A stretch of 38,571 nt of DNA, from the NCBI GenBank assembly GCA_022760335.1, contig JALEGE010000128.1, positions 1 to 38,571 on the forward strand. The letters are read 5' to 3'. A program made the translations under genes and the position numbers. How positions within the stretch are numbered: the first letter of the stretch is position 1; each line of letters begins with the position of its first letter. The DNA is from Hyphomonadaceae bacterium. GTDB lineage: Bacteria > Pseudomonadota > Alphaproteobacteria > Caulobacterales > Hyphomonadaceae. Below, in pieces: positions 28,113-34,707 of this stretch. The notes under the pieces are model-generated. The model saw only the letters and a program-made list of their open reading frames with translations, was not told where the DNA came from and ran no database searches.

Positions 28113-28150
28113 GACCCGCTTCTTGCCCTTCGGGCATCCAGGAGATTTTG

Positions 28151-28414
28151 ATGGCGAATACGAAGTCAGCCAAGAAAATGGTGCGCAAGATTGCGCGCCG
28201 CACGGAAGTGAACACATCACGTCGCTCGCGTGTGCGCACCCATGTGCGCCGTGTGGAAGAGGCGATCGCATCTGGCGACAAGGCCGCGGCCGAAGCTGCC
28301 CTGCGTGATGCCCAGCCGGAGATCATGCGTGCGGTGACCAAAGGCGTGATGCACAAGAACACCTCGGCGCGGAAAATTTCCCGCCTGTCCGCGCGCGTGA
28401 AGGCGCTCGGCTAA
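28151..28414 (+). CDS. rpsT: Small ribosomal subunit protein S20
   Basis: 87 residues from ATG 28151 with AGGAG ten bases upstream. A TTG directly before it would add only one residue. Starts [20 protein letters not shown], the standard S20 N-terminus, and has the triple-helix, Lys/Arg/Ala-rich composition with [17 protein letters not shown] near the end. It binds 16S rRNA early in 30S assembly. It lies directly upstream of the dnaA leader and has its own strong terminator. Confidence 0.97.
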
Positions 28415-28965: not shown

Positions 28966-30417
28966 ATGGGGTCTCGCAAGAAAGAAGAAAACAAGGCTGC
29001 GTCCACCAAAGACAGCATGGCGGGCAGTACCGGCGCGCCGGCAATTTGGAATCTCACGCGTAAGGATCTGAAAGGTCTGGTCTCATCCTCAGACTTTGAC
29101 CGCTATATTTCAGAACTGAAAATCATCGCTGAGCGTGACGGCAAGATTATCATCGCGGCTCGTACCCGCCTTACGGCAGATCGGGTGCGCGGTGAGCACC
29201 AGCGTCTTCTGCAACGCGTCTGGCGCTCGCATGATCCACGCGATCGGATTATCGACGTCATCGCATGGGATCGTGACGGCGCAGACTATTCTGAGCTGCT
29301 CGGCAATGACCCCTGGGCCGAAGATGTTGTGCCCGATGCCCACAAGACTGAGGCTCGGCCTGCAAACGAGAGCACGATCAGCGGCGAACGCCGGGATTAC
29401 ACCTTCGACAATCTTGTCGTCGGCCCGTTCAACCAGACGGCCTATGATCTGGTGCGCCACATTGCCGATGACGGCGAACTACCCGCCAATGTCATCCTCA
29501 TCTATGGTCTGCAGGGCGTTGGCAAAACGCACATGATTACCGCTCTACAACAGCATGTGGAGCAGGCCGAAGACACGCGCGAAATCTTCTACATCACGGC
29601 AGAGGATTTCCAGAATGAGTATATTGCCGGCGCCATGGCGCGCGATACGCGTGAGTTGAAGGCAAAACTGCGTGCCTGCGATATTGTGCTGATCGATGAT
29701 CTGCAGAACATCGCCAATGCCAAGGGCACGGATGCGGAGTTCTGCCGCAATCTGCGCTCGATCACCGAAGCGGGTGGCCTTGTGATTCTCACGACGGATA
29801 CCGCTCCCGGAAAACTGGACGGCTTCTCCACACGAGTCATGAGCCAGATCCGTGGCGCCATGTCGGTCGAGATCAAGGCCCCGGACAAGGCAGTGCGCCT
29901 GAAGATCCTGCGCCGCTTCGTCGACCGGCTTCAGGCACAGCGTCCGGCCTTCGAGGTTTCCGACGCCATGCTGGAGCAGATCAACCAGCGCATTCGCGGC
30001 CAGGGCCGGGAATTGCTGGGCGGATTGCTGGGTCTCTATTCGGAATGTAGCCTTGGCACGCTGGCACCGACCCAGGATATGCTGGCGCGCGTGCTCGACA
30101 AGCTGGCCGGTGCGGTCACCAATCCGAAGATCAGTGACATCAAGCAGGCCACTTGCGAGATGTTCGATCTCACCAAGGCTGAGATCGAAGGTCCGCGCAA
30201 GCTGCAACGGATTGTCTATGCCCGTCATCTGGCCATGTTCCTGTGCCGGGAAATGACGGACAAATCCTACCCCACCATCGCCCGCTCCTTCGGAAAAAGA
30301 GACCATACTTCAATCATGTACGCGGTTGAGCGTGTGACGGCGTATCTGGAAAAGCGCACTGATACCCCGCAACATCTCGACCAGTTGCGTGAGAGAATTT
30401 ATCAGCTGCAACGCTGA
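28966..30417 (+). CDS. dnaA: Chromosomal replication initiator DnaA, divergent form
   Basis: 483 residues from ATG 28966 (AAAGGGGG five bases upstream). The open frame runs 59 codons further up, but that part is leader. Domain I about 25-105 (WNLTRKDLKGLVSSSDFDRY), short linker, AAA+ domain from about 143 (YTFDNLVVGPFNQTAY). Walker A is GLQGVGKT (K187), not the usual GGxGLGKT. Walker B VLIDD (D244, D245), sensor 1 D278, sensor 2 R348. From Walker B to the end of box VII it aligns with E. coli DnaA without a gap. There, the arginine finger R285 is Gln (Q294) and the ssDNA-contacting R245 is Gly (G254). Domain IV keeps RDHT (445-448) but reads GKRDHTS, with SYPTIA for SLPEIG and YARH for RPRQ. 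Position before dnaN supports it being the working dnaA. Confidence 0.93.
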   Translation: MGSRKKEENKAASTKDSMAGSTGAPAIWNLTRKDLKGLVSSSDFDRYISELKIIAERDGKIIIAARTRLTADRVRGEHQRLLQRVWRSHDPRDRIIDVIAWDRDGADYSELLGNDPWAEDVVPDAHKTEARPANESTISGERRDYTFDNLVVGPFNQTAYDLVRHIADDGELPANVILIYGLQGVGKTHMITALQQHVEQAEDTREIFYITAEDFQNEYIAGAMARDTRELKAKLRACDIVLIDDLQNIANAKGTDAEFCRNLRSITEAGGLVILTTDTAPGKLDGFSTRVMSQIRGAMSVEIKAPDKAVRLKILRRFVDRLQAQRPAFEVSDAMLEQINQRIRGQGRELLGGLLGLYSECSLGTLAPTQDMLARVLDKLAGAVTNPKISDIKQATCEMFDLTKAEIEGPRKLQRIVYARHLAMFLCREMTDKSYPTIARSFGKRDHTSIMYAVERVTAYLEKRTDTPQHLDQLRERIYQLQR

Positions 30418-30623: not shown

Positions 30624-31742
30624 ATGAAACTGACGATCGAACGCGGTGACCTTCTCGGTGCGCTCTCCCATGTCCAGAATGTGGTGGAGCGGCGCAATAC
30701 CATTCCGATCCTGTCCAATATCCTGCTCACCGCCAGCGATGGCGCGCTGACGCTGACGGCCACCGATCTTGATATCGAGGCGGTCGACAGCGCCCCGGCC
30801 AGCATTTCCAAGGAAGGCGCAATCACCGCACCGGCCGGCACCCTGTTTGATGTGGTGCGCAAACTGCCCGGTGGAGCCGATGTGGAACTTTCCCTGGATC
30901 CGGGCAACAACCGCCTGTCGATCCAGTCTGGTCGCTCGCAGTTCGCACTGCCCACCCTGCCCGCTTCGGATTTCCAGACCATGGGCGGCGATGACGAAGC
31001 CACCCGGTTCGAAGTCGACGCAGCCGATCTGCGCCGCCTGATCGACAAGACGCGGTTTGCCATCTCCACTGAAGAGACGCGCTATTATCTCAATGGCGTC
31101 TATCTGCACGCCGCCGATGGCGATGGCGGCAAGGTCTTGCGCTGTGTGGCGACCGATGGCCACCGTCTCGCGCTCGCCGAAACGCCCGCGCCGAAAGGCT
31201 CTGAAAACCTCGAAGGCGTGATCGTGCCGCGCAAGGCCGTCACCGAGGCGCGCCGCCTGATCGATGCGGCCTCCGAGCCAGTTACACTGGAGGTCTCAGA
31301 CAACAAGATCGTTGTGCGTTCGGGTAATGCCGTGCTCACCGCCAAACTGATCGATGGCAGTTTTCCTGACTATGCCCGCGTCATTCCCCAGGGCAATGAC
31401 AAGAAACTCACCATCGACAACAAGGCTTTCGAAGCCGCGGTTGATCGCGTCTCCACTGTTTCGGCGGAGCGTTCACGCTCGGTGAAAATGAGCATGGAAG
31501 ATGGCCGGTTGGTGCTCGCCGTCAGCCACGCCGAAACCGGCCAGGGTCATGAGGAAATCGAGGCGGATTACGCTCACGAGCCCATGGAAATCGGCTTCAA
31601 TGCCAAATATCTGCTCGATATTGCCGGACAGATTGAGGCCGCCGATGCGGAGTTCCTGTTCAACGATCCGGCAAGCCCTGCCCTGGTGCTCGACCCCGAA
31701 GACGCTCACGCGCAATATGTGTTGATGCCGCTGCGCGTATAA
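30624..31742 (+). CDS. dnaN: DNA polymerase III sliding clamp (beta subunit)
   Basis: 372 residues, standard for DnaN. It begins MKLTIERGDLLGALSHVQNV followed by VERRNTIPILSNILL. Three repeated clamp domains are recognisable (FALPTLPASDFQTM, TRFAISTEETRYYLNGVYLH, GFNAKYLLDI). The C-terminal YVLMPLRV is the canonical end, part of the peptide-binding cleft. It forms the ring that tethers polymerase III. A double terminator separates it from dnaA. Downstream, a minus-strand gene ends only 10 bases away, and recF follows after that. Confidence 0.97.
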   Translation: MKLTIERGDLLGALSHVQNVVERRNTIPILSNILLTASDGALTLTATDLDIEAVDSAPASISKEGAITAPAGTLFDVVRKLPGGADVELSLDPGNNRLSIQSGRSQFALPTLPASDFQTMGGDDEATRFEVDAADLRRLIDKTRFAISTEETRYYLNGVYLHAADGDGGKVLRCVATDGHRLALAETPAPKGSENLEGVIVPRKAVTEARRLIDAASEPVTLEVSDNKIVVRSGNAVLTAKLIDGSFPDYARVIPQGNDKKLTIDNKAFEAAVDRVSTVSAERSRSVKMSMEDGRLVLAVSHAETGQGHEEIEADYAHEPMEIGFNAKYLLDIAGQIEAADAEFLFNDPASPALVLDPEDAHAQYVLMPLRV

Positions 31743-31752
31743 ACAGGCCGGC

Positions 31753-33513
31753 TCAGGCGCGCTGGGCACCGAATGTGGCATAGTCTACGTCCGACATTTT
31801 CAGCGCGTCCCAGACATAGGCGGCGAGATGATCGGTCAGCGTGCGTATCCGGTCGGGGGTCCAGTCTTCACACTTGCGCACCCAGTAAACCAGGTTCAGC
31901 CCCTCCAGCTCGCTCTCCCTTTGCGTCAGGGCGGCCATCTTCTCTTCGAAGGTGTCATCGCCGAAGCCCTGATTGATGCTGCGCGGCAAAAGGATGAGAT
32001 TGCCCAATAGGTTCATCACATCGCGGCGGGTTTGCCAGTCGGGGAACTCCTTCAGCCAGCCTGCGGGCAGATGAGTTGAAACCGGCAGGACATGTTCAAC
32101 GGTCATGTCGCGCAGGAAACTGTAGGGGGCGCCAGACATGATGTATTCGATCCAGACAACCGTCGACCGGCGCAACTGATACTGATCGAACGCGCCCGTC
32201 AGCGCGCTATGGATGCGGATCAGGTCCGCCTGCCACATGACCAGCGATTCCAGCCGGTCCGGCGTGGCACCATCCTTGAGCTCCTCAATTGCCTTGGCGA
32301 AGACCAGTTGCCGTTTCATTGGGCTGAACCCTGCCAACTCCATGGCAATGGCAGCGCGGTGCATCTGATCGAAGATGCGCGCGCGCCAGGGCGGCCCAGC
32401 GCTTTCCATCTGGCTGGCGCGGCCCATCACCCGCAGGGCCAGCGGTTTCCACTCTGTCCACCAGACTGCGCGAATTGGCAACAGCGGATTGAAAGGGCTT
32501 GATTGTCCGCCCATGGCCGGCTGGTGCAGCGTGTTCCAGTCCGTCGCGCATTTGTGCAGGAACCGGAAATAGCCCGTCAGCCCCTTGGCCGTGCCATGGC
32601 GGCTTTTCATCAGATCGACAAAACCATTCAGCCGCTCGACGGTGCTGGGCTTGTGATCGGGTGTGTCGGGAGTAAACCGTTCCATCATTTCCAGCGCCAG
32701 GACAAAGCCCTGAAAACCGCTATAGCGGTCATAACGGTGGCTTTCCTCGACCTGGTCCACCCGCGCCTGGCTACGCGCGGTCAAAGCCTGACGGATATCC
32801 TGCCAGGCCGTCAGCAACTCCTCGACCTCTTCGGCGCTGCCGGGAAACTCAGCCAGACGCGACTTGATAAGATCGGCATCCTCCAGTTTCAGCCCGCGCA
32901 TATTGATGGTGCGGAAAATCCGGTTCGCCATGGCTGGTGTCGCCACGCTAAGCCGCAGGATCAGAACACGTTCAAGCACCGTCCAGGCAAGAAAATACAA
33001 AGTGCGCGGCGACAGGGTACGCAGCTGGTCGCGCATATGTTTCTGAGCTGCGCGCAACACTTCGGCCTGGCCTGTCAACCGCCCGGAAGCCAGGCTGAGT
33101 GACTTGCCGCGCGGCTGGATATGGGTGGCAAGATACTGATGGCCGATCAGTTTCAAGCGCGGCTCGCCCTTGCGGTCAAACACACAGGCCTGCAGGCGGG
33201 TTTTCAGCTCCGCATCCTGAATCATGTCACGCAACAAGCAGATCAGGATGGTCAGCGTGGTAATGCGCTGCAAGCCGTCATAGAGACGGAACTGCTGGTT
33301 CATCCCATGCACGATGATCACACCGACGAAATAGGCATCCTCTTCAGCTTCACCATCGGGCGGCACGGCAAAAGTGATGAGATCATCCAGCAGTTCGCTG
33401 ACCTGCTCAGCTGTCCACTGATAGTCGCGCTGGATATCGGCTGGTTCCATCCAGCTATTGCCAAGTACAAACTCCAAAGTGTCGGAGATCGGCTGTAAAT
33501 GATGCATGCTCAT
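31753..33513 (-). CDS. DUF262-DUF1524 protein, GmrSD-type restriction nuclease family
   Basis: 586 residues from ATG 33513. A TTG 12 codons upstream has no support. ATG 33507 is also possible. N-terminal DUF262: IQRDYQW (27-33), LYDGLQRITTL (79-83 DGLQR) and FRTINMRGLKLEDADLIKS. The ParB-like nucleotide-binding motif is normally DGQQR. Here the third residue is Leu. C-terminal DUF1524 HNH-like nuclease: TVEHVLP (H474), LLGNLILLP (N505), RSINQGFGDD (N514) and FEEK. The fused architecture is that of GmrSD type IV enzymes, which cut modified phage DNA, and of relatives in SspE and BrxU systems. It sits antiparallel between dnaN and recF, 10 bases from dnaN and divergent from recF. No methylase or partner gene is next to it, so it would act alone. 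Confidence 0.85.
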   Translation of the reverse strand: MSMHHLQPISDTLEFVLGNSWMEPADIQRDYQWTAEQVSELLDDLITFAVPPDGEAEEDAYFVGVIIVHGMNQQFRLYDGLQRITTLTILICLLRDMIQDAELKTRLQACVFDRKGEPRLKLIGHQYLATHIQPRGKSLSLASGRLTGQAEVLRAAQKHMRDQLRTLSPRTLYFLAWTVLERVLILRLSVATPAMANRIFRTINMRGLKLEDADLIKSRLAEFPGSAEEVEELLTAWQDIRQALTARSQARVDQVEESHRYDRYSGFQGFVLALEMMERFTPDTPDHKPSTVERLNGFVDLMKSRHGTAKGLTGYFRFLHKCATDWNTLHQPAMGGQSSPFNPLLPIRAVWWTEWKPLALRVMGRASQMESAGPPWRARIFDQMHRAAIAMELAGFSPMKRQLVFAKAIEELKDGATPDRLESLVMWQADLIRIHSALTGAFDQYQLRRSTVVWIEYIMSGAPYSFLRDMTVEHVLPVSTHLPAGWLKEFPDWQTRRDVMNLLGNLILLPRSINQGFGDDTFEEKMAALTQRESELEGLNLVYWVRKCEDWTPDRIRTLTDHLAAYVWDALKMSDVDYATFGAQRA

Positions 33514-33588
33514 GCTTCTCGCCCCACACGAAGCCTGAAAAGCATACAATCAAGGACTTTAAGGCACGTCGAGGATAGAAATCGATTT

Positions 33589-34707
33589 ATGACCACTTTG
33601 ACACGACTTCGCCTGACAGATTTCCGGAATTATGAGCAACTTGACCTGAAATTGGACGGTCGACACGTCTGTCTGTATGGAGCCAATGGCGCGGGAAAGA
33701 CCAATCTGCTCGAGGCAATCAGCCAACTTGGGCCCGGCCGCGGGCTGCGCTCGGCCGCGCTAACGGACCTTACCCGCCATGGCGCGCAAGGCGGGTGGAC
33801 CGTCTCGGGCGAATTGGAAGACCGGCGCATCGGGGTTGGGCTGGACCGGTCTGGCTCAGGCAACAAGCGCACCGTGCGAATTGATGGCGAAACCGCCTCA
33901 CCCAGCGACCTGGCGGATCTCATCCGTATCGTGTGGCTCACCCCCGCCATGGACTCCGTATTCCGGGGCAGCGCGTCTGACCGGCGGCGCTTCTTCGACC
34001 GGCAAGTGATGGCCCATTTGCCTGCCCATGGCCCGGCGGCCGCGCGCTATGAAAAGGCGATGCGCGAGCGCAATGCCCTGCTGGAGCGCCAATATGTCGA
34101 CCCGGCCTGGGCCGATGCCATAGAGGCGCGCATGGCCGAGGCCGGCGCGGAGCTCGCCATCGGCCGCGCCCTGGTGCTGGAGCGCCTGCAGAGCTCGGTC
34201 AATGATCGCCCCGAAGGCGCCTTCCCCAAAGCCGACCTTGCCCTGGAAGGCGAGGCCGAGGAGATGGCCGTGGCCGGCGCGGGCCTTGCCGAGATCGAGG
34301 AGACGCTGGCCGAACAATGGGCCGGCATGCGCCATGTCGACAAGAAGGCCGGGCGCACGCTGAAGGGCCCGCACCGGGCCGATCTTTCCGTCATTCACCG
34401 CCCCACCGCCATGCCGGCCAAGGATGCCTCCACCGGCCAGCAGAAGGCCCTGCTGATCGGGCTGATCCTGGCATCCGCGCAAGGCCTGGCGCGCGGCGCG
34501 GGCGGGCCGACGCCGTTCCTGTTGTTGGACGAAGCCGCCGCGCATCTCGACATGGATCGCCGGGCGGCCCTGTTCGACGAGCTGTCCGCCCTGCCCGGCC
34601 AGGCTTGGCTCACCGGCACGGAGGCCTTTCTGTTCGAAGCCTTTGCCGAGCGCGCGCAGCATGTCGCCGTGGATGCCGGCGCAGCCCGACTGGACAGCCT
34701 TGATTGA
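33589..34707 (+). CDS. recF: DNA replication and repair protein RecF
   Basis: 372 residues from ATG 33589 (MTTLTRLRLTDFRNYEQLDL). The open frame is longer upstream but that part overlaps the divergent gene's start. ABC/SMC-type ATPase: Walker A YGANGAGKTNLLEAIS, FRGSASDRRRFFDRQVM, signature STGQQKALLIGLILA and Walker B FLLLDEAAAHLD. Role: with RecO and RecR it loads RecA at single-strand gaps. The ribosome site is weak (GAGGA 13 bases upstream). In Caulobacter gyrB follows recF. Here an exported peptidase follows directly instead. The 75 bases between it and the DUF262 gene start hold both divergent promoters. Confidence 0.95.
   Translation: MTTLTRLRLTDFRNYEQLDLKLDGRHVCLYGANGAGKTNLLEAISQLGPGRGLRSAALTDLTRHGAQGGWTVSGELEDRRIGVGLDRSGSGNKRTVRIDGETASPSDLADLIRIVWLTPAMDSVFRGSASDRRRFFDRQVMAHLPAHGPAAARYEKAMRERNALLERQYVDPAWADAIEARMAEAGAELAIGRALVLERLQSSVNDRPEGAFPKADLALEGEAEEMAVAGAGLAEIEETLAEQWAGMRHVDKKAGRTLKGPHRADLSVIHRPTAMPAKDASTGQQKALLIGLILASAQGLARGAGGPTPFLLLDEAAAHLDMDRRAALFDELSALPGQAWLTGTEAFLFEAFAERAQHVAVDAGAARLDSLD

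Follow-up and report, generated by a model that had tools for sequence, protein, structure and literature searches.

Canonical ATP-DnaA, as described in E. coli, B. subtilis and Aquifex, combines domains I, III and IV with Walker A and B motifs, sensors 1 and 2 and a box VII that carries Arg281 and the arginine finger, Arg285 (E. coli numbering). Its gene lies by dnaN and recF. The finger is central to models in which ATP-DnaA, and not ADP-DnaA, fires the origin, and it was called invariant in a 2021 paper (PMC8287927). Eight B. subtilis residues are essential in the AAA+/AAA+ filament interface, H231 among them (PMC6669920). For the switch-off by hydrolysis (RIDA), the partner protein is Hda, or HdaA in Caulobacter crescentus. 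The HdaA finger R145 is essential in C. crescentus (PMC3836487) and the sensor 2 mutant of its DnaA, R357A, over-initiates (PMC3193534), so the ATP switch works in that species. In E. coli, R285 of DnaA is dispensable for RIDA (PMC5742627).

The DnaA described here is encoded in a 38,571-nucleotide stretch of DNA from a Hyphomonadaceae bacterium, referred to as the window, and belongs to the same order as C. crescentus. It shares the canonical domains, motifs and Arg281, and its gene sits in the normal dnaA place, as the first-pass annotation had said:

28148..28414 (+), rpsT (PF01649, 2.3e-28)
28966..30417 (+), dnaA, 483 aa, the sole DnaA found in the genome (PF00308, 2.3e-36; PF08299, 4.9e-24; PF11638, 5.3e-6)
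30624..31742 (+), dnaN, with three DNA_pol3_beta domains
33499..34707 (+), a recF-like gene (PF02463, 1.6e-19)

The three Pfam profiles all score above cut-off and correspond to AAA+ domain III, HTH domain IV and domain I. Against TIGR00362, the NCBI equivalog for DnaA, the protein matches at full length and best by far, with 316.1 bits against a cut-off of 343.9 that is a naming threshold and no biological definition. Its AlphaFold2 model matches 8btg_A (Z 28.9, rmsd 5.7, 333 aligned) and 2z4r_A, T. maritima domain III (Z 26.7, rmsd 1.7 Å over 239 residues). The window DnaA is a divergent member of the DnaA initiator family.

A search for a second, canonical dnaA found none, with a single PF00308 match in this 97%-complete, 215-contig genome. 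The relatives likewise carry one full-length DnaA per genome, single-contig assemblies included. These relatives have further PF00308 matches, but the profile regions covered suggest IstB-type helpers (profile positions ~34-139) or HdaA, and they were rejected as second DnaAs. A close relative is Hyphomonadaceae bacterium UBA5336, whose DnaA is 78% identical. Between the two genes dS is ~0.89, dN ~0.14 and dN/dS ~0.15; the window dnaA is under purifying selection and is maintained. With its gene in the normal place, no other DnaA found and purifying selection acting on it, the protein is probably a working initiator. The genome thus supports the working initiator of the earlier proposal; the changed ATP control that was proposed with it would be consistent with the residues described below. 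Its decay, or a role other than initiation, with replication started otherwise or by an unassembled second dnaA, would fit the TIGR00362 score and the fragmented assembly. That reading is very improbable given the low dN/dS, the kept neighbourhood, the near-identity of residues 239-300 to UBA5336 and the lack of a second DnaA in complete relatives. The origin was not located: only 3 one-mismatch DnaA-box matches, the chance level, occur in window positions 1-38571.

The finger position lies in box VII, which contains the following:

29830..29856 (+), box VII helix of the AlphaFold2 model, residues 289-297, holding R290, Q294 and R296
29833..29835 (+), Arg290, the kept box VII arginine (E. coli Arg281)
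29845..29847 (+), Gln294 (CAG), at the arginine-finger position (E. coli Arg285)
29851..29853 (+), Arg296 (E. coli Gly287), the substitute proposed earlier

The alignments set the window DnaA against E. coli MG1655 DnaA and as many as 180 further DnaAs. Both the replacement of the finger by Gln and the gap-free fit from Walker B to box VII, first noticed by eye, were confirmed. Counted inclusively, 50 residues run from the Walker B Asp236 to position 285 in E. coli and the window DnaA, as in nearly all 181 DnaAs, which makes a frame shift unnecessary. The UBA5336 assembly encodes the same Gln within the almost identical stretch 239-300, so the residue is real and no sequencing error. A hidden register shift is unlikely because the AlphaFold2 model superimposes so closely on the solved domain III. 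A shifted frame with some other Arg at the structural finger position was a refuting possibility raised at the outset; no evidence for such an alignment artefact, or for a sequencing artefact, was found, and set against the alignment, the second assembly and the model the probability of either is close to negligible. The window DnaA lacks the box VII finger of the canonical switch.

Among relatives, we call the window family f1 and the other families of its order f2-f5; family names are inferred and counts are of distinct sequences. Arg is found at position 285 in none of 54 f1 DnaAs, which have 48 Glu, 2 Asp, 2 Gln, one Val and one Ile. It is also absent from f2, which looks like Caulobacteraceae (0/8, all His), and nearly so from f3 (1/12) and f4 (1/13), giving 2/33 for f2-f4 pooled. 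By comparison, Arg is present in 11/11 f5 DnaAs and in 48/50 alphaproteobacterial DnaAs from other orders. Wider sampling of f3 found Val, Ile, Lys or Arg, varying by genus. On protein trees from alignments stripped of the box VII columns, this position changes ~6-7 times; it is labile across f2-f4 and mostly acidic in f1. The finger is thus gone across most of the order, and the window Gln belongs to this order-wide loss and is not the single-gene peculiarity that it had seemed. The alignment of related DnaAs had been proposed to learn whether the Gln is fixed in a clade: what is fixed in f1 is the lack of Arg, while Gln itself occurs in 2/54. C. crescentus DnaA itself presumably has His at the finger position. 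One f2 DnaA is 490 residues long with sensor 2 at 357, the C. crescentus number (PMC3193534).

Two observations concern single genomes. In one f4 genus (g13; L005 and L009), one genome has His at the finger position and another Arg, so the position is evolving freely there. Two low-scoring, long-branch DnaAs from alphaproteobacteria outside the order (L156 in G103, L157 in G116) have Leu.

The ATP pocket presents a different picture. Its motifs are:

29506..29529 (+), Walker A GLQGVGKT, residues 181-188, intact, aligned with E. coli K178/T179; Lys in 54/54 f1
29695..29700 (+), Walker B Asp244-Asp245, intact; invariant in canonical, f1 and f2 DnaAs
30007..30009 (+), Arg348, sensor 2 (E. coli Arg334, C. 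crescentus Arg357), kept; Arg in 54/54 f1 and 79/79 canonical DnaAs

Walker A, Walker B, sensor 1 and sensor 2 are all present in the window DnaA (K187, D244/D245, D278 and R348), and judged by these residues its nucleotide pocket is complete. At least 90% of f1-f4 DnaAs retain the cis residues K178, T179, D235, D236, D269 and R334 and, at the interface, R227 and G338. The Walker A motif had been listed among the altered features; its reading is correct, but the Gly, Lys and Thr positions are canonical. Much of the filament interface departs from the canonical pattern together with the finger. Of the eight essential B. subtilis residues, f1 retains the equivalents of R202, R206 and G317 and replaces F218, H231, R264, L269 and R321. 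In E. coli numbering the departures from canonical ATP-DnaA comprise the finger (Gln in the window, Glu in most f1) and F239, H252, L290 and R342. Because five of the eight are replaced, the f1 inter-subunit contact appears remodelled as a whole, with the finger not the sole stray change.

A new arginine has appeared near this contact:

29755..29757 (+), Arg264 (E. coli Asn255, B. subtilis Asn234), the best candidate for a relocated trans-acting arginine

In 79 canonical DnaAs the E. coli Asn255 column is Asn in 73 and basic in 1%; in f1 it is Arg in all 54. Position 255 comes three residues after H252, the equivalent of the essential B. subtilis H231, on the same helix face. The AlphaFold2 model places R264 in a helix of residues 255-268 and Q294 in the box VII helix of residues 289-297. 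By homology with H231 and by AAA+ topology, R264 would lie close to the neighbour's ATP, and it is plausibly the relocated finger of the window DnaA. Arg255 never occurs with Arg285, and of 92 DnaAs with Arg285 just one has a basic residue at 255, a Lys. With only some three origins behind it, this exclusion is statistically not strong: three changes suffice to place basic 255 on the tree, and an independent-pairs test was not significant, with too few pairs. Two long-branch relatives combine Arg255 with Asp285 and Lys255 with Thr285.

Second DnaAs of Fibrobacter also have Arg255 and no Arg285 (Pro at 285). They differ from the window DnaA in accompanying a canonical DnaA, so that they are not sole initiators. 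In genomes G294 and G295 (L275 and L276, with L273 and L274) such a divergent, finger-less second DnaA is found beside a canonical Asn255/Arg285 DnaA. We tentatively entertain the possibility, short of an even chance, that in Hyphomonadaceae the trans arginine moved from box VII position 285 to position 255, on the helix that follows Walker B and precedes sensor 1, leaving a mostly acidic old site, and that the Fibrobacter second DnaAs did the same independently. In the MCM and E1 helicases, a residue that acts in trans from outside box VII and contacts Walker B or sensor 1 of the neighbouring subunit is called sensor 3 (PMC5039278), and the likeness to R264 would be one of analogy.

Other arginines of box VII could take the role instead. 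R296 had been suggested as the substitute finger, and R290 lies one helical turn before the finger position. R290 is kept in 45/54 f1 DnaAs, and all nine that lost it are basic at the R296 position, so that R296 may help where the R281 equivalent is missing. The R296 position is basic in only 28/54 f1, whereas R264 is Arg in every one, which rules out R296 as a conserved substitute. R290 is also present in canonical DnaAs, beside the real finger, and the link between positions 281 and 287 comes down to one or two independent pairs. That R296 or R290 acts as the finger is improbable.

With a home-made HdaA alignment profile we found HdaA in nearly all of the 61 relatives as well as in the window genome; G042 had no convincing match and a few f5 matches were weak. 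The Hda_lid model (PF22688) missed the HdaA of the window genome, which the home-made alignment recovered (L253, G000:C152:34922-35575, E 6e-62). HdaA is also that protein's best NCBIfam match, below the models' cut-offs. Like described Hda proteins it has a clamp-motif-like N-terminus (VQSSFEF) and a finger Arg (DLASRL), and the finger Arg ([ST]R) is present in 50/50 aligned HdaA sequences. Unlike them it lacks the Walker A Lys (GPPRSGRTT), as do many f1 HdaAs that keep the finger (SGLTT, SGRTT, SGVTS). Read from their motifs, DnaA has a pocket and no finger, and HdaA has a finger, often with no pocket of its own. This pattern fits the dispensability of E. coli R285 for RIDA and the C. crescentus HdaA R145 and DnaA R357A phenotypes.

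The explanation we favour, with somewhat better than even confidence, is that the window DnaA works as the sole initiator, that its trans (finger) face has been remodelled, that its ATP is removed by way of HdaA and that R264 is a probable contact in trans. The ATP pocket would be kept mainly since clamp-bound HdaA supplies the finger for hydrolysis of DnaA's ATP, and the on/off switch would survive with no finger in DnaA itself. At the origin, the contact between DnaA subunits would be carried by the remaining interface, and in f1 R264 (and R290) would probably reach the neighbour's nucleotide or its Walker B acid, resembling the trans sensor 3 residues of other AAA+ proteins. We regard a partial rewiring of ATP control as probable. 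Contrary to this explanation, DnaA of B. subtilis, H. pylori, S. elongatus and D. radiodurans loses its strand-separating activity when it carries an R285A-type mutation (PMC8287927), and E. coli with a normal origin does not survive R285A (PMC6727663).

A relocated finger cannot be the answer for the whole order, because DnaAs of f2-f4 mostly lack a basic residue at both 255 and 285, and f2, the group that looks like Caulobacteraceae, has no Arg at 255. With no obvious substitute there, DnaA might have no trans finger at all: domain I and other parts of the AAA+ interface would carry its assembly at the origin, the ATP of the neighbouring subunit would go unsensed, and ATP would serve only for inactivation by HdaA. 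E. coli DnaA(R285A) functions again when the origin consists of non-discriminating sites only (PMC6727663), several Gram-negative DnaAs unwind equally with ADP (PMC8287927), and the C. crescentus Cori works with weak G- and W-boxes (PMC4468827). For the window DnaA we regard this as rather unlikely: R264 is invariant in f1, beyond what a released interface needs, and in the same ADP unwinding experiments the finger Arg was still required (PMC8287927). A remodelled face with R264 in trans remains our preferred reading for f1.

Across f1 and most of the order, fingerless DnaA is a confirmed variant of DnaA; its mechanism we infer. No earlier report of the finger loss was found in the open-access literature searched, which covers few subscription journals. 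If the loss holds for most of the order, probably including Caulobacter, then assembly of the initiator would be separable from its switch-off by hydrolysis, and this separation is directly testable in a genetically tractable bacterium.

Changes at DNA-contacting residues were also assessed. The Gly254 at E. coli R245, earlier linked to binding of unwound origin DNA, is present but has no special significance, since position 245 varies among canonical DnaAs (S 36, A 15, R 11 of 79); we rejected it as ordinary variation. The nearby K243 to Ala252 is rarer and more notable, with K/R at 243 in 76/79 canonical DnaAs. Domain IV had been described as altered; its contacts D433, H434 and T435 are unchanged, and the more notable difference is at another contact:

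30199..30201 (+), Lys412 at E. coli Arg399 (domain IV)

E. coli R399 is, we assume, a base contact. Its column is Arg in 77/79 canonical DnaAs and Lys in the window DnaA and in 36/54 f1, a substitution that sets these proteins apart from canonical ATP-DnaA and could possibly change affinity for the DnaA box.
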